Assembly (NCBI RefSeq): GCF_000192225.1
Contig: NZ_GL872413.1
Location: 2,166,794-2,230,793 of the forward strand
Source of the DNA: Capnocytophaga sp. oral taxon 338 str. F0234
GTDB taxonomy: Bacteria; Bacteroidota; Bacteroidia; Flavobacteriales; Flavobacteriaceae
DNA: 64,000 bases
Direction: 5' to 3'
Positions 4,636 through 56,342 of this stretch are shown piece by piece (position 1 is the stretch's first letter; the number at the start of each line of letters is the position of its first letter). Position numbers and translations under genes: made by a program. The notes under the pieces are model-generated. The model was not told the origin of the DNA. It saw only the letters and a program-made list of their open reading frames with translations, and made no database searches.

Positions 4636-7272
4636 ATGAAAAAAATACTATTCTTAACCGCAATCCTCTCTGTAATGGGTATAGGTACTGCTCAGAACAG
4701 GCAGGAAGCCATTCGTTTACAAAATTTGCAAAAATCCTGGGTTAAAAATATTCCCTTCCAAGCCCTCCCCCTTAGCAGAGGAGCAGGAGAGATTATCCAA
4801 GTAGATAGAAATCCTAAGAATCCTTATGAACTCTATGTAGCTTTATCCCATTCAGGGGTATGGTATAGTGATAACAATGGCGCCAGCTTTACTCCTACTT
4901 TTACCGATGCCATGTCCCCACAAACTACCGCTATGGCAGTCAATTGGGATACGCGTACCCTTTGGGTAGCTAATCATCAGGGGGTCTTTTTCAAGGAATA
5001 TACCAAAGATTGGCAAACAACCTCTTGGACAGGTAATGTGAATATTCGCCAAATTACCCTCCTTTCCGATACTTCTGTTTGCCTTAGTGCCTTAGGAGAT
5101 ATCTCTGGAGATAAGGGCGTATTCTGTACTACCGATAAGGGAAAATCCTGGAACCAAACCTTCGGTCAGGTAGGCGTTAATGAGCTAAAGAAGGTACCTT
5201 CTGCTCCTGAAACACTCTTCCTCGCTGCTTGGGATATGGAACAAACCCCTTCCAACATCATTCCCGCAGGTAAGAAATCAGGAATCTATAAGAGTAGCAA
5301 CTCAGGAACTACTTGGGAACTTATGACTGGGGCAGGCTCTGGCTTCCCTCAAGGGAATATCGGGAAAATATCCTTAGCGGTATTCAGCCCTACTTCCCTT
5401 TATGCATTGGTAGATAACCGCGAACGTGCCAAGGATGAGGGAGACGATGTGCTTTTCCATAACCTTTCCAATAAGGATTTCCTTGCCTTAGAGGATGAGA
5501 GGATTGAACAATACCTCTACAATCATTCCTTACAGAACAAATTCTCTGCCAATAATCTCCGTGAAATAGTACGCTCAGGAGCCGTCAAAGCCAGTGATAT
5601 TCCTAAGTTCACCGGAGCCCTCCCAAGGGTTATCGGCGCTGAGGTGTATCACTCCGCCGATGGAGGAAAATCCTGGGTGAAAAAAAATAACTCCCCTCTG
5701 ACCAATGTGTTCTACAGCAAAGGATATGAAGTAGGAGCTCTATGTGTAAATCCTAAGCAAGAGAATGAACTATACCTCTCAGGAATTCCTACACTCAAAT
5801 CCAACAATGGAGGTATTACCTGGACACTCATCAAGGACAATGACAAAAGTCAAAAGGTGTATCAGCTCTTTGCCGATGAGAGACAAATCATCTTGGTAAC
5901 CAATCAAGGAATGTTTCAATCCCTTGACCAAGGTCGCACTTGGGCAAGACAAGAAATGCCACAAACGGTTTATGTAACCTCCCTCTCTATCGGAAATCCT
6001 AAAGATGCTACCCTCTATGCAAGCATCCTTAACGGTGGGGTACTCAAGTATACCTCCAACCAATGGTTTCTCTCCAGCAATGAAAACGGACGCTTAGTCG
6101 TTACCCCTGAAAATAAGCTTTACCTTGCCCAATCATTAGGAAGTATCCTCCCCTTAAGGCAAAGCAAAATCACCCTTCCTTATGATAGAAAAACCAAACA
6201 ACGTTACCCTTTGCAGACAGCACTTTCTCTTTCCCCTCAAAACAATACCATTCTCTATGCGGGGAGCAATGTGCTATTCCAATCCCTTAACGAAGGCAGA
6301 CAGTGGAGTGCTATCTCCACAGACCTTACCAATGGAGATAAGGGTGGGATCCTCTCCTATGGTACTATATCCGCTATCGCTGAGTCCCCTTTTCAGTTCG
6401 GACTCATCTATACAGGAAGTGATGATGGAATGATTTATACTACCCAGAATGGAGGCGTTTCTTGGCAAATGATTTATTCCTCATTTCCCTCTCCTAACCG
6501 AGTAGTTTCACTGCTTGCCTCCAAGCATAACCAAGATCGTGTATATGCTATCCTACAGAATGATAACCACCAAGCCCTTATCTTTCGTAGTAATAATATG
6601 GGGAAAAGTTGGGATAACCTTAAGGCAAACCTTCCTGAGGAAACCGTTAATGTTATCGTAGAGGACCCCACCAACGAACAAGTCCTCTATTTAGGTACCG
6701 AAAACGGACTCTATGTTTCCTTTGATATGGGCGAGAAATGGCATATCTTTAAGGAAAATCTCCCTCGTACCTCTGTAAGCGCTATTGTGATAAATACCCA
6801 AACCAATCAGCTATATGTAGGTACTAAGGGACATGGCTTTTTCACTGCCAATGTAGCCGCTCTCAAGGAAATACGTGCCGCTGTACAAGATCAACTCTTC
6901 TACCCACTGAAGGAAACCTATTCCATTCCGTACTCTCCAAAATGGGGAAATGCCCCTAGCCCTTGGCAAGAACCTGAAGTGCCTACCTTATACTTGGAAT
7001 CTTTTGCCTCAAAGGCAGGTAGCAATATTAAAATAAGTATTGTTAAGGACAAAATTACCCTTTCTAAGTTCACTTACCAAACCAAAATAGGACTTAACTT
7101 TATCCCTTTTGATTTGGTCTTTAACGAAGAAGGACGTGTTGCCTATGAAAAGAAACTCTTAACAACGTTCAAGAAGGCAAGCAATGGTAAGTATTACCTC
7201 CCTAAGGGTACTTACAGAATTATCTTTGATAGTGATGCCTTTGATGAAGAACGTACCCTTGTTATCGAATAA
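4636..7272 (+). CDS. Secreted BNR-repeat/VPS10 (sortilin-type) beta-propeller protein
   Basis: An 878-residue protein with a signal peptide (MKKILFLTAILSVMGIGTAQ). The body carries many BNR/Asp-box repeats of the SxDxGxxW type, for example DNNGASF, TDKGKSW, SNSGTTW, SADGGKSW, SLDQGRTW and NNMGKSW. Such proteins fold as one or two propellers, and the flavobacterial ones are usually annotated as glycosyl hydrolase or sortilin-like. No catalytic sialidase set was identified, so the enzymatic label is not safe. A C-terminal beta domain (about residues 770-878) follows. I see no clear type IX sorting domain, so the final location (periplasm or surface) is open. The gene is followed by a strong terminator. 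Confidence 0.8.
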   Translation: MKKILFLTAILSVMGIGTAQNRQEAIRLQNLQKSWVKNIPFQALPLSRGAGEIIQVDRNPKNPYELYVALSHSGVWYSDNNGASFTPTFTDAMSPQTTAMAVNWDTRTLWVANHQGVFFKEYTKDWQTTSWTGNVNIRQITLLSDTSVCLSALGDISGDKGVFCTTDKGKSWNQTFGQVGVNELKKVPSAPETLFLAAWDMEQTPSNIIPAGKKSGIYKSSNSGTTWELMTGAGSGFPQGNIGKISLAVFSPTSLYALVDNRERAKDEGDDVLFHNLSNKDFLALEDERIEQYLYNHSLQNKFSANNLREIVRSGAVKASDIPKFTGALPRVIGAEVYHSADGGKSWVKKNNSPLTNVFYSKGYEVGALCVNPKQENELYLSGIPTLKSNNGGITWTLIKDNDKSQKVYQLFADERQIILVTNQGMFQSLDQGRTWARQEMPQTVYVTSLSIGNPKDATLYASILNGGVLKYTSNQWFLSSNENGRLVVTPENKLYLAQSLGSILPLRQSKITLPYDRKTKQRYPLQTALSLSPQNNTILYAGSNVLFQSLNEGRQWSAISTDLTNGDKGGILSYGTISAIAESPFQFGLIYTGSDDGMIYTTQNGGVSWQMIYSSFPSPNRVVSLLASKHNQDRVYAILQNDNHQALIFRSNNMGKSWDNLKANLPEETVNVIVEDPTNEQVLYLGTENGLYVSFDMGEKWHIFKENLPRTSVSAIVINTQTNQLYVGTKGHGFFTANVAALKEIRAAVQDQLFYPLKETYSIPYSPKWGNAPSPWQEPEVPTLYLESFASKAGSNIKISIVKDKITLSKFTYQTKIGLNFIPFDLVFNEEGRVAYEKKLLTTFKKASNGKYYLPKGTYRIIFDSDAFDEERTLVIE

Positions 7273-9348: not shown

Positions 9349-10203
9349 ATGAACTTGAAAATAATAACCACTTACTCCTTACTCGCTGTTCTCCTTAGCA
9401 GTTGCTATTGGCTGGACACCCCTAAGAAAAACAGTCATGCAGTGGCTCGAGTAGGCGATTATTACCTATATGAGGAGGATATCCGAAAACTGCTCCCTAA
9501 GGACTATACGCTGGAGGATAGCCTACAAATTGTAACCCCTTATATTGATAATTGGGCACTAAAAAAACTCCTCTTACTCAAAGCAGAGGAGAATATCTCC
9601 AATGCCAAAAAAGAAGAATTTGAACATTTAGTAAGCCAATACCGAACCGATTTGTATACCCAATCCTACTTAGACTTACTCTCTCGACAGGTGGATACCG
9701 CAATTAGCAAACAAGAAAGAGAGTTATTCTACCAAGAAAATAAGGATATCTTTAAGCTTAATGAGGAATTGATACAACTTCGGTATATACAGCTATCTCC
9801 CAGTAGCTTAAGTCCTAAAATCATCAACGCTTTCAAAAATTTTTCTCCTAAGGATAAGCAATATATTGATTCTTTAGCCCCTCACTTCACCTCCTCTTTC
9901 CTCAATGATAGTATGTGGGTAAGGGCAAGTGAAGTCCGTGAGAAGTTGCCTATGCTCGCCTCAAGGCTCAATAAGCGATTCTCACATCAGTTCCTTGAGG
10001 ATAGGGATTCCACCAATGTGTACCTATTAAAAATAAATAACTTCTTGGACAATACCGACTATGCTCCCTTGAATTATGTATATCCAACCCTGCAACAAAT
10101 TATCCTAAATAAGCGCAGGAGCAATTATATCAATGACTTAGAAAAAGAAATCATCAATAATGCAATTGAAAAGAAACAATTTGAAATCTATGAACAGAAT
10201 TAA
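9349..10203 (+). CDS. SurA-N-like periplasmic lipoprotein (PPIase-related)
   Basis: A 284-residue protein with a lipoprotein signal (LLAVLLSSC, lipobox Cys at about residue 18). It has the VARVGDYYLYEEDIRKLLP opening seen in SurA/PpiC-type chaperones (A-x-V-G-D-x-x-L). The middle part looks like a degenerate parvulin region without clear catalytic residues, so a chaperone role is more likely than isomerase activity. The ATG at 9349 gives a proper lipoprotein signal; an earlier TTG does not. Its 3' end overlaps the start of the SurA-like gene by 14 bases, so the two are translationally linked and probably act together on outer-membrane protein precursors. Confidence 0.75.
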   Translation: MNLKIITTYSLLAVLLSSCYWLDTPKKNSHAVARVGDYYLYEEDIRKLLPKDYTLEDSLQIVTPYIDNWALKKLLLLKAEENISNAKKEEFEHLVSQYRTDLYTQSYLDLLSRQVDTAISKQERELFYQENKDIFKLNEELIQLRYIQLSPSSLSPKIINAFKNFSPKDKQYIDSLAPHFTSSFLNDSMWVRASEVREKLPMLASRLNKRFSHQFLEDRDSTNVYLLKINNFLDNTDYAPLNYVYPTLQQIILNKRRSNYINDLEKEIINNAIEKKQFEIYEQN

Positions 10204-12788: not shown

Positions 12789-14240
12789 ATGAAACCCATC
12801 CTTATTGTTCAGATTCTCTACGTCCTACTTATCATCATGGTGTGTTTACGCATTATATGGGATACCCGCTCAGTAAGCAAAGCCTTAGCCTACCTGCTCT
12901 TGGTAATCTTTGCTCCTATCGTGGGGGCTATTTTCTATTTCTCTTTTGGTATTAACTACCGCAAACACAAAATATACTATAGGAAACTAACCATTGACCA
13001 ACGCTTCCGAAAAACCTTGCAAGAACATTTTCCTCAATTGCGCAATCATCTCCGCTCATTAGCACCCTATGTAACTTCCTCTTATAAGAAAAGCCTACGC
13101 TTTTTATCACATATTGAACAGCGCCCTTCTATTATTCCTAACGAAGAGGTAAAGATAATCTGTAATGGCGAAAATTTCTTCCCACAACTGCTTGAAGCTC
13201 TTAAAAAAGCAACACACCACATCCATATTGAGTTCTATATCTATGAAAACGACCATATAGGGAATGCTATCAAGGATATTCTTATTCAGAAAGTAAAAGA
13301 GGGGGTAGAGGTACGCTTTATCTATGATGACTTTGGCAGTCAGGATATTCGTAAAAATATTGTAAAGGAATTAAAAGTGCATGGCGTACAGGCTTTCCCT
13401 TTCTACAAAATCACCTTCATTAAGCTCGCCAACCGCATGAACTACCGCAACCACCGAAAAATAGTAGTTATTGATGGCTATACGGCTTTTGTAGGGGGAA
13501 TCAATATCAGTGACAAATATAACAATGCAGAAAAGAATCCCCTCTACTGGCGTGATACCCACTTGATGATACGCGGTTATTCTGTCTACACCTTACAAGC
13601 TATTTTCTTACAGGATTGGAACTTTTGTAGTGGGGAAAATGTTAATATCAATGCTCTCTACTTCCCTGTAGATATTACTCCCTATCCCACGAATTATTTT
13701 ACCCAAATAGTATCCAGCGGGGCTGATTCTGACTTACCTAATATCCTTTATGCTACAGTACAACTTATCTATGCCGCCAAGCGAGAAATACTCCTTACCA
13801 CGCCCTACTTTGTCCCAGATACCTCTCTGCAAGAAGCCTTAATAATAGCTGCTCTAAGTGGTGTAGAGGTGAAATTACTCCTCCCTAAGGAGGGGGATTC
13901 CGTGTTTGTACATACCGCCAGCGAATCCTTCTTTGAAGAACTCCTCAGAGCAGGGGTACAGATTTATCGTTATGAGAAAGGTTTTGTACATGCCAAAACT
14001 TTCGTAATTGATAGCGAAGTAGCCTCCGTAGGGACTGCTAATCTTGATGCTCGTAGCTTTGATCTTAATTTTGAAGTAAGTGCTATAGTCTATAACAAAA
14101 AGGTAGCCACTGAACTCCGCCTTATTTTCTACGAAGATATAAAAGAAGCCGCTCTACTTTCCATTGACCAATGGAAAAAGCGCAGCCGACTCAAACAGCT
14201 CTTAGAGCGCATGGCACGGCTTCTCTCACCTTTCTTGTAG
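12789..14240 (+). CDS. cls: Cardiolipin synthase (phospholipase D type)
   Basis: A 483-residue membrane enzyme that joins two phosphatidylglycerol molecules into cardiolipin. Two hydrophobic segments lie at about residues 3-22 and 33-54. Two HKD motifs are complete: His222/Lys224/Asp229 (NHRKIVVID) and His401/Lys403/Asp408 (HAKTFVID). The start at 12,789 (MKPILIVQ) puts the first membrane segment at the N-terminus, as in other Cls proteins. No partner gene is apparent, and the convergent SUKH/SUFU gene ends 12 bases away. Confidence 0.92.
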   Translation: MKPILIVQILYVLLIIMVCLRIIWDTRSVSKALAYLLLVIFAPIVGAIFYFSFGINYRKHKIYYRKLTIDQRFRKTLQEHFPQLRNHLRSLAPYVTSSYKKSLRFLSHIEQRPSIIPNEEVKIICNGENFFPQLLEALKKATHHIHIEFYIYENDHIGNAIKDILIQKVKEGVEVRFIYDDFGSQDIRKNIVKELKVHGVQAFPFYKITFIKLANRMNYRNHRKIVVIDGYTAFVGGINISDKYNNAEKNPLYWRDTHLMIRGYSVYTLQAIFLQDWNFCSGENVNINALYFPVDITPYPTNYFTQIVSSGADSDLPNILYATVQLIYAAKREILLTTPYFVPDTSLQEALIIAALSGVEVKLLLPKEGDSVFVHTASESFFEELLRAGVQIYRYEKGFVHAKTFVIDSEVASVGTANLDARSFDLNFEVSAIVYNKKVATELRLIFYEDIKEAALLSIDQWKKRSRLKQLLERMARLLSPFL

Positions 14241-27977: not shown

Positions 27978-28820
27978 TTATTGAATTGTGTAGACGATCT
28001 TTGAGTATTGAGCCACTCGAAAAGCTCCCAAAGGATTCTTATTAGGATCTGTTGTATTTACAACATTCCCTCTTACCCGATTAGGAATAGTAAAGAGCCC
28101 CGCATTATCCGCTGAGTTATTGGAAAGAACGCGGATAAAATCCTTATACCTTTTAGAAACCCTAAAAAGGGTAATTTCCACCGTGTCCCCCTTCTTGAAT
28201 TTTTCATCTCCTTTGGAGATTCTACTGACAATTTGGGTAAAAAAGTGCCCATCTGCAAAATAGCGCCCATCAAAGCCATATAAGCGAATTACCCCATCGG
28301 AGGAGGCTTTTATACGCAATACAAAGTTATTTTCTTCCAATGGATTGGCATCAAAGCGCAAGTGTAATATAATCTCATCATGGGTAAAACCTCCATCATT
28401 CGTTTGCGTTATATTACTATTGGAGAGCTGTGGGACTTCTCTTATTATATCAGAGGATTCATATTGTTTCCCTTCATAAAGGATGGAAAGGGTATACTTC
28501 CTTCCCAATACAGGAGAAAAATTACGATTCTGATAGACTCCTTGCTCCCTTTCCGGAAAGGAAAAGGTATTTCCTTGGTCATCTGAGACAGAAACTCTCG
28601 CCCCTGTTGCTCCTTCTGGAGTTTGATTACTATAATAAGGTGAGGTGTAGGAGAGATTAATTGTTTGTATCTTACCCTCAGTTCCTTTTTCCCAATCAAT
28701 ATTGGCATCCACAACCAACTCTTTTTCTTGAGTATCCAAGTCCAATTCTATTACTTTCTCACAGGAAGAAAAAATAAAAAGAAAAGGCAATATTTTAGAG
28801 GTAAAAATAAGTTTTTTCAT
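27978..28820 (-). CDS. DUF4249 family outer-membrane lipoprotein
   Basis: A 280-residue protein with a lipoprotein signal (KILPFLFIFSSCEKV) followed at once by the family hallmark VIELDLDTQEKELVVDANI. DUF4249 proteins are companions of TonB-dependent receptors in Bacteroidota and probably help bind or pass a substrate. The start at 28,820 lies directly after the receptor stop codon; a longer frame running back into the receptor gene is not used. The substrate is unknown. Confidence 0.87.
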   Translation of the reverse strand: MKKLIFTSKILPFLFIFSSCEKVIELDLDTQEKELVVDANIDWEKGTEGKIQTINLSYTSPYYSNQTPEGATGARVSVSDDQGNTFSFPEREQGVYQNRNFSPVLGRKYTLSILYEGKQYESSDIIREVPQLSNSNITQTNDGGFTHDEIILHLRFDANPLEENNFVLRIKASSDGVIRLYGFDGRYFADGHFFTQIVSRISKGDEKFKKGDTVEITLFRVSKRYKDFIRVLSNNSADNAGLFTIPNRVRGNVVNTTDPNKNPLGAFRVAQYSKIVYTIQ

Positions 28821-54445: not shown

Positions 54446-54495
54446 AAAGCAAGTATCAATCGGGATAGTAGCAGGTTCGAGTCCTGCCTTGCTTT
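54446..54495 (+). ncRNA. tRNA-like minihelix 1 (T arm plus acceptor-like stem)
   Basis: Stem AAAGCAAG (54446-54453) with CTTGCTTT (54488-54495), 8 bp. T-arm-like hairpin GCAGG-TTCGAGT-CCTGC (54471-54487), stacked directly on the 3' strand as in a tRNA. The 17 bases between (54454-54470) hold GGGATAG and no anticodon arm. The T loop fits TTCRANY. The element ends 15 bases before the next ATG. Confidence 0.6.
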
Positions 54496-54510
54496 CAAAA
54501 TAAAGACAAA

Positions 54511-54894
54511 ATGGAAGAACTTAAAAAAGAAGCAAAAGATATTCAAGATTACTTAGAGATTAGTTGTTCAGATAATCCAGAGGAAATGGTTGAACGTATT
54601 AAAGAGTTATCGGTATATATGGCTCGTAGTGGTGAGATGTTGGCAAAGGCAAAGTATCTCTACAACCAACGTACAACGGCTGAAATTACAAAGACTATCA
54701 TAGCCATAGCAAAGGAGCAATATCTATCGGCAACAGCTCAAAATGCCTTAGTTAAGGGGATTGCTCAAGAGGAGCAGTTTCTTGTAGATTGGTTGGAACG
54801 TATTAACAGAGCTTGTACTCATCAGATAGAAGCACTTAGAAGTCTTCTAAGTTATGAGAAAGAGAATTTAAGGATAACAAAAACGGGATATTAA
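54511..54894 (+). CDS. Helical prophage protein
   Basis: A 127-residue, nearly all-helical protein (EELKKEAKDIQDYLEI, ERIKELSVYMARSGEMLAKAKYLYNQR, EEQFLVDWLERINRACTHQIEALRSLL). Similar proteins are common in Bacteroidota phages, but the function is unknown. It follows minihelix 1. Confidence 0.65.
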   Translation: MEELKKEAKDIQDYLEISCSDNPEEMVERIKELSVYMARSGEMLAKAKYLYNQRTTAEITKTIIAIAKEQYLSATAQNALVKGIAQEEQFLVDWLERINRACTHQIEALRSLLSYEKENLRITKTGY

Positions 54895-54975
54895 GCAAGT
54901 TTAGTTATTCGTTAAGCAAGGTGAAAATTAAATCCTAACAACCTAAAAACCAACGTAAAAAAGAAAATAAGCAAG
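54893..54975 (+). repeat. AAGCAAG repeats ahead of the antirepressor gene
   Basis: The heptamer AAGCAAG occurs at 54893, 54914 and 54969, and again in minihelix 1 at 54447. The 100-base leader before the KilA-N gene has no gene. Confidence 0.5.
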
Positions 54976-54994
54976 TTTTAAAAGAAAATAAGTA

Positions 54995-55759
54995 ATGAAT
55001 AATCAAGTTTACAACTACAACGGAAATAATATCACTTTCCAACTTGGAAATGGTGATGTAATGATTAACGCTACTGAAATGGCTAAAGCGTTTGGAAAAA
55101 CTCCTAAAGACTATTTAAGAACTCAATCAGCGCAAGAGCTTATTAACGCTCTTTCCGTTAGGCTAAAATGCCTAACGGCTGATTTAGTGAAAGTTGTACA
55201 AGGAGGGGATATACAAGGCACTTGGTTACACGAGGATGTTGCCTTAGATTTTGCCCAATGGCTTTCAGTTGATTTTAAATTATGGTGTAATGATAGGATA
55301 AAGGAGCTTTTAAAAACAGGCGTTACCACTATTTCAGACGAGGATGAAGCTATCTACAATGCTATGAATATTCTACAAAAGCGATTAGAAGCAAGCAAAC
55401 AAAAAGTACAAATGCTTGAGAGTAAAGTAGAATTACAAGAAACAGAGATAAAGTACCTTGCTCCAAAGGCTCAATATACAGATGAAGTGTTACAGAGTAC
55501 AAGTACTTTCACCACTACACAGATTGCAAAGGATTTAGGCATGAGCGCTCAGGCTTTAAATCAAAAGCTAAAAGAAAGGAAAATACAATTCTTTCAAAGT
55601 GGGCAATGGTTTCTTACTCATACCTATCAAGATAAAGGATACACAGACATGCGTATAACACCTTATTTTGACACAAAAACAGGAGAGCCTAAAACCTCTC
55701 AATCTATGGTTTGGACAGAGAAAGGCAGGCAATTTATTCATAGTTTAAAGATTAGTTAG
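54995..55759 (+). CDS. KilA-N domain phage antirepressor
   Basis: A 254-residue protein. The KilA-N domain spans about residues 1-105 (GDVMINATEMAKAFGKTPKDYLR, ...GTWLHEDVALDFAQWLSVDFKLWCNDRI). A coiled coil follows (about 118-155), then the C-terminal phage antirepressor domain KilAC (about 160-250, FTTTQIAKDLGMSAQALNQKLKE). Such proteins counter phage repressors during induction. Its long leader with repeats hints at post-transcriptional control. Confidence 0.88.
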   Translation: MNNQVYNYNGNNITFQLGNGDVMINATEMAKAFGKTPKDYLRTQSAQELINALSVRLKCLTADLVKVVQGGDIQGTWLHEDVALDFAQWLSVDFKLWCNDRIKELLKTGVTTISDEDEAIYNAMNILQKRLEASKQKVQMLESKVELQETEIKYLAPKAQYTDEVLQSTSTFTTTQIAKDLGMSAQALNQKLKERKIQFFQSGQWFLTHTYQDKGYTDMRITPYFDTKTGEPKTSQSMVWTEKGRQFIHSLKIS

Positions 55760-55858
55760 TATTTCCGATAAACTGGTACCACAAACATATACCTAAAATA
55801 TTTTTAACATAGAAATTGTTAAAGACAAAAAACCTAACATTATGAAAGTTATGTATCT

Positions 55859-55921
55859 CATGTCTTAGACATGATGCCCCCCGATAGGCAAGCCCTCACG
55901 TTCGAGCCGTGAGCGGGGGCA
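55859..55921 (+). ncRNA. tRNA-like minihelix 2 with 5' hairpin
   Basis: Stem TGCCCCC (55875-55881) with GGGGGCA (55915-55921). T-arm-like hairpin CTCACG-TTCGAGC-CGTGAG (55895-55913). The spacer between holds GATAGG, close to the GATAG of minihelix 1. A small hairpin CATGTC-TTA-GACATG (55859-55873) precedes it. The next ATG is at 55,941. It is much more GC-rich than its surroundings, so the structure is probably maintained by selection or recently acquired. Confidence 0.6.
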
Positions 55922-55940
55922 AAGATTAAAAAATAAAGTA

Positions 55941-56342
55941 ATGAGAACAATTAAATTTAGGGGTTTTAGTGAAAAAGCTAACATATTTGTATATGGAGAT
56001 TTATTAACCTTTGAAAATTGTTTTGGAATATCAGAAACTAAAGGTGAAAGAAATTTCTATATAGTAGAAACTAATTCAATTGGACAATTCACAGGACTAT
56101 ATGACAAAAATGGAAAAGAAATCTATGAAGGGGATATTGTTGAAAAAGCAGTAAATAATATAATTAGTAGTCATAGATTTAAGATTGTATACTCTGAATG
56201 TTTTGCTGGCTTTTGTAGACTTTATATAAAGAAAAAGGGTACAAGAGATGGTTTAATAAGTCTTTCTGAAATGGATGTAGATAGAGAAGAAATAAAAGTA
56301 ATAGGAAACATCTACGACAACCCTGAATTATTCAAACAATAA
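55941..56342 (+). CDS. YopX family protein
   Basis: A 133-residue protein of the YopX family, found in phages of Bacteroidota and Firmicutes. The opening IKFRGFSEKANIFVYGDLL, the GQFTGLYDKNGKEIYEGDIV stretch and the ending EVIGNIYDNPEL-like IKVIGNIYDNPELF are diagnostic. The function is unknown. It directly follows minihelix 2. Confidence 0.9.
   Translation: MRTIKFRGFSEKANIFVYGDLLTFENCFGISETKGERNFYIVETNSIGQFTGLYDKNGKEIYEGDIVEKAVNNIISSHRFKIVYSECFAGFCRLYIKKKGTRDGLISLSEMDVDREEIKVIGNIYDNPELFKQ

Follow-up and report, generated by a model that had tools for sequence, protein, structure and literature searches.

tRNA-like minihelices in an apparent Capnocytophaga prophage and a related RNA family at gene junctions of phages

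Two minihelices in an apparent early operon

The window analysed here is a stretch of 64 kb, or 2.5% of the 2.55-Mb genome of Capnocytophaga sp. oral taxon 338 str. F0234, and the region considered below looks like a prophage early operon, with genes for RecT, a DUF3127 protein, a KilA-N/KilAC antirepressor, a YopX protein, a DNA methylase and DnaB. Two tRNA-like minihelices had been predicted on its plus strand and both exist as drawn, E1 at 54446–54495 and E2 at 55875–55920. E1 begins 22–23 nt downstream of the end of a small ORF (54,423) and lies 15 nt before the start codon (54,511) of a 127-aa gene (54511–54894, plus strand, no Pfam match). A single relative of this gene was found in IMG/VR (L001, which has no match to the minihelix model); of 299 genomes, two have one, namely that of the window and another from its genus. 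E2 lies within the 181-nt gap (55,759 to 55,941) between the antirepressor gene (54995–55759) and the YopX gene (55941–56342), both on the plus strand; its 3' purine-C (R-C) is 20 nt from the YopX start codon. The same gap contains an 8-codon ORF (ATG AAA GTT ATG TAT CTC ATG TCT TAG; 55842–55868) that overlaps a small hairpin and stops 10 nt before E2, a distance resembling the stop-to-element spacing of actinophages.

E1 (54446–54496, plus strand) consists of a 7-bp stem, or 8 bp with 54446/54495, a 17-nt D-like spacer (TATCAATCGGGATAGTA, 54454–54470) in which a 4-bp hairpin TATC/GATA is possible, a 5-bp T stem with the T loop TTCGAGT (54476–54482), and T-C at the positions of N73-C74; its acceptor/T stack amounts to 12 bp. 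Energy folding by itself recovers the E1 T arm. E2, as delimited by family comparison (55879–55920, plus strand), has a lower stem of CCCCG (55879–55883) with CGGGG (55914–55918), a D-loop-like spacer (ATAGGCAAGCC, 55884–55894), a T stem of CTCACG (55895–55900) with CGTGAG (55908–55913), the T loop TTCGAGC (55901–55907) and the 3' R-C, here G-C (55919–55920). The E2 T arm is not recovered by energy folding alone, and the E2 fold is therefore decided by comparative evidence. The acceptor-like stem of 7–8 bp initially proposed for both thus describes E1, whereas E2 combines a 5-bp stem with a 6-bp T stem; nor do the two share one layout, as had been suggested, since a model of the E2 family reaches only the T arm of E1 (15.9 bits, E 0.5), which leaves E1 outside that family.

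In the 64-kb window, E1 and E2 are the two matches to a 7-bp stem, 8–20 nt and a 5-bp T arm with loop TTCRANY; dinucleotide shuffles of the window gave a mean of 0.12 such matches and a maximum of 2 in 60, an excess that taken alone is only suggestive. Like tRNA, both elements have a TTCRANY T loop closed by G-C (in the family copies this loop follows from pattern construction), and unlike tRNA both lack the anticodon arm. ARAGORN found nothing over the window, E1 and E2 included. With the Rfam tRNA model (RF00005) E1 scores 26.3 bits, under the gathering cut-off of 29, and it is the only tRNA match below threshold yet above 15 bits in the window's genome; up to E=10 its opposite strand gave a weak Plastid-ycf2 match. 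No Rfam model matched E2 on its own strand up to E=10; the opposite strand gave an unrelated weak match. BLAST with 66 nt around E2 returned seven phage records, six named Riemerella and one PJN03, at about 78% identity (E 0.04 to 2), where the E2-like stretches are mostly unannotated; against plasmids, E2 gave no match.

The E2 family and the six contexts of E1

The RNA family that contains E2 is almost certainly real, judging from the comparison of its copies. Its members, of about 42 nt, follow the order of a 5-bp stem, an 11-nt D-loop-like spacer, a 6-bp T stem, a 7-nt T loop and then R-C, with helices of 11 bp and a few 12-bp variants. A pattern on the E2 spacer and T loop found 9 IMG/VR stretches, a looser pattern 40, and a pattern for the opposite polarity of the lower stem at least 120. 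A scan of all collected loci for this arrangement (5 bp / 11 nt / 6 bp / 7 nt / 6 bp / 5 bp) yielded 429 copies, each in a 120-nt context of its own, spread over 154 loci (396 on IMG/VR contigs, 20 in named phages, 10 on named genome contigs and 3 in further genomes), which thinning reduced to 264 distinct sequences. Chance folding was rejected: 482 strict matches (not thinned) occur in 217 other loci against 0, 0 and 0 in three shuffles, a contrast that is inflated in that most of the 217 loci were collected by pattern. E2 itself scores 54.4 bits with model R1 and 37.9 bits with model R2, which was trained on 150 copies, of both stem polarities, from 56 other IMG/VR loci with the window, its genus and the E1-bearing loci left out. 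On the 2.55-Mb genome, where all 124 candidates were scored, E2 is the sole R2 match (E 1.3e-5) up to E 0.1, and R2 also recovers copies from Riemerella, Elizabethkingia and Hymenobacter.

The search patterns fixed the loops and left most stem positions free. All free stem pairs form in 117 of 131 distinct pattern matches, against 8.7% when the halves are re-dealt, and for a second pattern in 44 of 71, against 2.4%; pairing is incomplete in the other 14 and 27. Outside the stems, the strongest mutual information among the 264 distinct copies falls on 7x13, paired in 98% (45% expected; C-G 137, A-U 75, G-C 30, U-A 15), and on 14x29, paired in 95.5% (67% expected; A-U 158, G-C 65, C-G 12, U-A 7), while 15x28 hardly varies (C-G in 252/264). 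The pair 7x13 makes a one-pair D-like hairpin around NGGCA, and 14x29 with 15x28 join the spacer to the T loop in a pseudoknot of two pairs; in E2, 55885 pairs with 55891, GG stands at 55887–55888, and 55892–55893 pair with 55907–55906. Since paired stems, TTCRA and GG were criteria in choosing the strict copies, the best structural evidence is the pairing at free positions together with 7x13 and 14x29; the invariance of GG (9–10) and of TTCRA, fixed by patterns and filter, is not independent evidence. RNAalifold returned the same structure from 150 aligned copies, in an alignment fitted to the R1 structure. The aligned copies thus establish two covarying stems, the pairs 7x13, 14x29 and 15x28, and a conserved 3' R-C, and the compensatory changes anticipated in other phages are strong for E2. 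G9G10 could also meet U24C25 of the loop in a D-loop/T-loop contact as in tRNA. A subtype seen in L020, L040, L051, L024 and L045 has a spacer like AACGGTTTTC and the loop TTCGATT; some of its copies have a 7-bp T stem and 12 bp overall, and its eight rows in the alignment lack 14x29.

The named hosts of the copies are Bacteroidota, Streptomyces and Mycobacterium. Model matches number 10 in the Streptomyces phage Izzy and 8 in phiJoe, a cluster R mycobacteriophage has 12 model or 15 scan matches, and one contig with copies agrees with mycobacteriophage Send513 at 99% identity in an 8-kb comparison; no element was found in phiC31. Among 39 pattern matches in named genomes, R1 confirmed 18, comprising 15 in Bacteroidota (including Flavobacteriaceae, Tenacibaculum, Elizabethkingia, Hymenobacter, Chitinophagaceae, Dysgonomonas, Paludibacter, Millionella and Culturomica) and 3 in Streptomyces, the latter weak at 38–41 bits; the 21 others, from many phyla, were unconfirmed. 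Searching 11 of the genomes behind these matches with the model, with 150 candidates scored in each out of several hundred to several thousand, gave five positives, all from confirmed loci, and none in six from unconfirmed ones. Model matches occur in at least 2 of 395 Bacteroidota, one of the two being the genome of the window, and in at least 1 of 150 Streptomycetaceae, this one being the query genome; both are lower bounds because few candidates (16 or 43) were scored per search over 40 genomes.

A variant element is found in the Streptomyces loci L069 (1465–1507), L073, L085 and L287. In L069 and in the plasmid L287 a GntR-family gene lies on one side, and in L287 a DUF2637 gene on the other; because of these gene contexts the element probably extends beyond phages. 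Sixteen Streptomyces plasmid records hold DNA like that of one of the Streptomyces loci, a likeness seen at the level of DNA sequence. Separately, L005 (3902–3998) and L053 (5239–5308, minus strand) carry between two elements a stretch TGCTACTCGC... GTCAGAAATCTGG.AGGTA, by eye common to Riemerella phages and a Flavobacteriaceae genome, which is possibly another structured RNA.

E1 is found in six prophage contexts, the window and L004, L011, L016, L017 and L108, and E2 is present in all of these loci. Across the six, the stems are invariant; differences in the spacer are confined to bases of the D-like loop (AATC, AAAA, GATT), to which is added one T-loop base (TTCGATT in L011 and L017). The compensatory changes seen in the E2 family are thus absent from E1. 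In L004, E1 lies directly 3' of a homologue (by eye) of the DUF3127 gene, whereas its place in the window is 5' of the 127-aa gene; with such different neighbours, E1 has been kept while its surroundings changed. A tRNA origin of E1 is possible, though its acceptor stem was found in none of 32 host tRNAs (30 loci of 48 Rfam matches). A 49-nt tRNA-like element of Streptomyces (L285, 607–655; RF00005 30.6 bits, above the cut-off) has the 7/17/5 layout of E1, the loop ATCGAAT and then C.

Placement at gene junctions

In the annotated phages Send513, phiJoe and Izzy, 29 of 32 elements lie between genes, on the sense strand; two more run into annotated gene starts, and the last covers part of a short annotated gene at its end (a weak Send513 candidate at 13662–13704 and a Joe candidate at 28152–28107 were left out of the placement counts). 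The distance from the upstream stop to the 29 intergenic elements has a median of 11 nt and is most often 8 nt, with 23 of the 29 within 15 nt (6–15), and the next start follows at 25–58 nt in 26. Within the small-gene regions of the three actinophages, which we infer to be early, an element is found in 29 of 31 gaps of at least 70 nt and in none of 18 shorter ones; in the rest of the right part of Send513, nine long gaps hold none. All copies lie on one strand in each of 73 multi-copy loci. By this placement the elements lend support to the idea, already among those first put forward, that they act in operon processing. The window itself departs from this picture, as 119 nt separate the antirepressor stop from E2, unlike the close post-stop placement in actinophages, and this counts against the processing reading, as do the nine empty long gaps of Send513 and the lack of elements in phiC31.

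What follows the element differs between GC-rich and AT-rich copies. Downstream of GC-rich copies there is often a second hairpin (for the 38 nt that follow, the mean z is -1.64, with 76 of the first 120 of 218 copies below -1) and a Shine-Dalgarno-like run (GGAG, GAGG or AGGA in 85 of the 120). AT-rich copies lack this hairpin (z -0.20), and 39 of 44 have an ATG within 40 nt downstream. The main observation left unexplained by the model favoured below is that L146 and L110 contain tandem runs of 4–5 elements with no evident gene in between, where the ORFs, of 41–65 aa, merely overlap one another; such runs fit trans-acting or decoy roles at least equally. They lie at 2463–2981 and 1606–1782 in L146 and at 6614–7002 in L110, with a further run, known by coordinates only, at 10011–11360 in L137; the elements in them are often ~100–180 nt apart, and the linkers in L146 and L110 are GGC-rich.

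Proposed pre-tRNA mimicry and its alternatives

The 3' end of the element resembles that of host pre-tRNAs. In counts that leave out 9 copies with mid-GC flanks, the base after the 5-bp stem is R in 44 of 44 AT-rich and 216 of 218 GC-rich copies and the next is C in 42 and 212 respectively, while a second C is not conserved. Distinct tRNAs likewise have C74 in 27 of 27 cases in the window's genome and in 23 of 23 in a Streptomyces genome, with C75 encoded in only 2 and 9 (ends taken from 30 of 48 and 30 of 69 matches; 31/31 and 29/29 for C74 with ARAGORN), so that most of these genes have no encoded CCA. Of the 3' RCC that pairs with RNase P RNA in minihelix substrates, the copies keep R and the first C, as do the host tRNA genes. 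In one study, model hairpins made of acceptor and T arm are cut by bacterial RNase P, the acceptor/T stack of pre-tRNA is 12 bp, and interference is strong at G19, G53, A58 and G71 (PMC11143913); among the substrates named in its references are C4 RNA of phages P1 and P7 and a polycistronic mRNA (PMC11143913). The equivalents of G19, G53 and A58 in E2 are 55888, 55900 and 55905; in the family, all 271 copies have G22 (=G53), and G10 and A27 are fixed by the filter. By its sequence, the minihelix thus combines a stem, a T arm, a stand-in for the D loop and the 3' end of a host pre-tRNA, the features by which RNase P and RNase Z recognise their substrates. The weak points of the processing reading are the 11-bp helix of the E2 type, against 12 in pre-tRNA, and the absence of CCA after the elements. 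The -1 base, too, counts against it, being mostly A (152/218 GC-rich, 22/44 AT-rich), whereas U is favoured by E. coli RNase P.

The best explanation, to which we give about an even chance, is that the elements mimic pre-tRNAs, so that operons are cut at gene junctions by RNase P and/or RNase Z of the host. An E2-type RNA would copy the upper half of a pre-tRNA (coaxial acceptor/T helix, T loop, D-loop stand-in with GG, N73-C74) and fold beside the terminating ribosome in a polycistronic early transcript. Host pre-tRNA machinery would recognise it, RNase P at the 5' end and/or RNase Z or the CCA enzyme at the 3' end, and the message would be cut or marked at the junction; the upstream mRNA would keep a 3' end ~8–15 nt past its stop, and the downstream mRNA would gain its own 5' end, followed in actinophages by the second hairpin. 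E1, which is closer to tRNA, would be another type of such a mark, an assignment we hold to be fairly probable, with confidence limited by its lack of covariation.

An uncut minihelix might instead be a folded barrier acting in cis, shielding the 3' end of the upstream mRNA from 3'-5' exonucleases or the junctions from Rho. A compact pseudoknotted fold placed 6–15 nt past the stop in 23 of 29 cases, about where the footprint of a terminating ribosome has its edge, would suit this role. Any stable hairpin would suffice for it, however, and neither the 3' R-C nor the pseudoknot pairs with the T loop would be accounted for, so that we consider a barrier unlikely. Somewhat less probable is a translation element, a mimic of the tRNA elbow that would bind the ribosome (L1 stalk or E site) and promote termination-reinitiation at the next start. 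The position between stop and start, with the start 25–58 nt away in 26 of 29 cases and an ATG within 40 nt of 39 of the 44 AT-rich copies, speaks for it, but it accounts neither for the pre-tRNA-like R-C nor for tandem runs without evident genes. Freed minihelices could also act in trans as decoys or sponges, titrating a host tRNA-binding enzyme or a tRNA-targeting defence. The tandem runs and the 12 model or 15 scan matches of the cluster R mycobacteriophage are in keeping with this proposal; one copy per junction in a single orientation is more than a decoy needs, though, and with only two elements in the window prophage we think it more doubtful still. The origin from full tRNA genes shrunk by deletion, named at the outset as the main alternative, is very improbable: E1 does score 26.3 bits as a tRNA, and among the matches listed (20 of 819 records) its BLAST against phages gave mainly tRNA genes, but its stems are the same in six contexts with differing flanks, and for E2 a relic was rejected, as many diverged copies share one layout with covarying stems and tertiary pairs of their own.

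Several known systems bear comparison with the pre-tRNA mimics proposed here. Minimal RNase P substrates such as AT1 likewise stack acceptor and T stem coaxially under a T-loop cap with a 3' purine-C; the phage elements differ from them in being genome-encoded, repeated at junctions, of 11 rather than 12 bp (E2 type), provided with a pseudoknotted D-like spacer and devoid of CCA. In mascRNA/menRNA, a small tRNA-like fold shows RNase P and RNase Z where an RNA ends. mascRNA (RF01684) is, however, an animal nuclear RNA; the best family score with its model is 26.9 bits, for one Izzy element, against a cut-off of 42.5, and E2 has no match. In mitochondria, tRNA shapes between genes direct the cutting of polycistronic RNA, whereas the phage elements are not tRNAs and their cutting is putative. 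The tRNA-like domain of tmRNA, too, is an acceptor with a T arm and a reduced D region; tmRNA was rejected, as neither ARAGORN nor Rfam found one in the window and the loci scanned. An intrinsic terminator was also set aside: none was called at E2, the 3' flank of AT-rich copies is A-rich and not a U run, and the call on the E1 T arm arises only from the T-rich start of E1's own acceptor strand. The SAS/ESAS repeats of cluster K mycobacteriophages are, like the minihelices, repeated elements upstream of gene starts, in their case those of non-structural genes; SAS is a nearly fixed 13-bp sequence, GGGATAGGAGCCC, half of the repeats have 17-bp inverted repeats, and the authors found little support for hairpins in the mRNA (PMC3203893). 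Identity with SAS was rejected, because GGGATAGGAGCCC is absent from E2, and in E1 the sequence GGGATAGTAGC stands over 30 nt ahead of the start codon rather than beside it. The stretch 54462–54474 within E1, GGGATAGTAGCAG, agrees with SAS at 10 of 13 positions, probably by chance.

The minihelix family is apparently new to the literature, within the searches made. In the loci scanned, E2-type RNA is matched above threshold by no Rfam model, and no description of the family was found among the papers listed, as judged by titles and abstract openings, nor anything matching in the portions viewed of PMC5311408 (phiJoe), PMC2864571 and PMC8040213; where viewed, 'repeat' in PMC5311408 refers to att sites or to repeats of assays. 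An unnamed earlier sighting is possible among the thousands of RNA candidates in the supplements of PMC8040213.

A compact RNA fold with hundreds of copies is thus present even in laboratory phages such as Izzy, phiJoe and Send513. More tentatively, at somewhat below even chances, the early operons of phages and plasmids in two phyla may be punctuated by pre-tRNA mimics that recruit RNase P/RNase Z at nearly every early junction, a bacterial counterpart of mitochondrial tRNA punctuation. Should tRNA enzymes indeed be recruited, phages would derive gene-by-gene expression from one transcript by means of host machinery, and the elements would be natural minimal RNase P substrates and could provide small, portable mRNA-processing tags for Actinomycetota and Bacteroidota.
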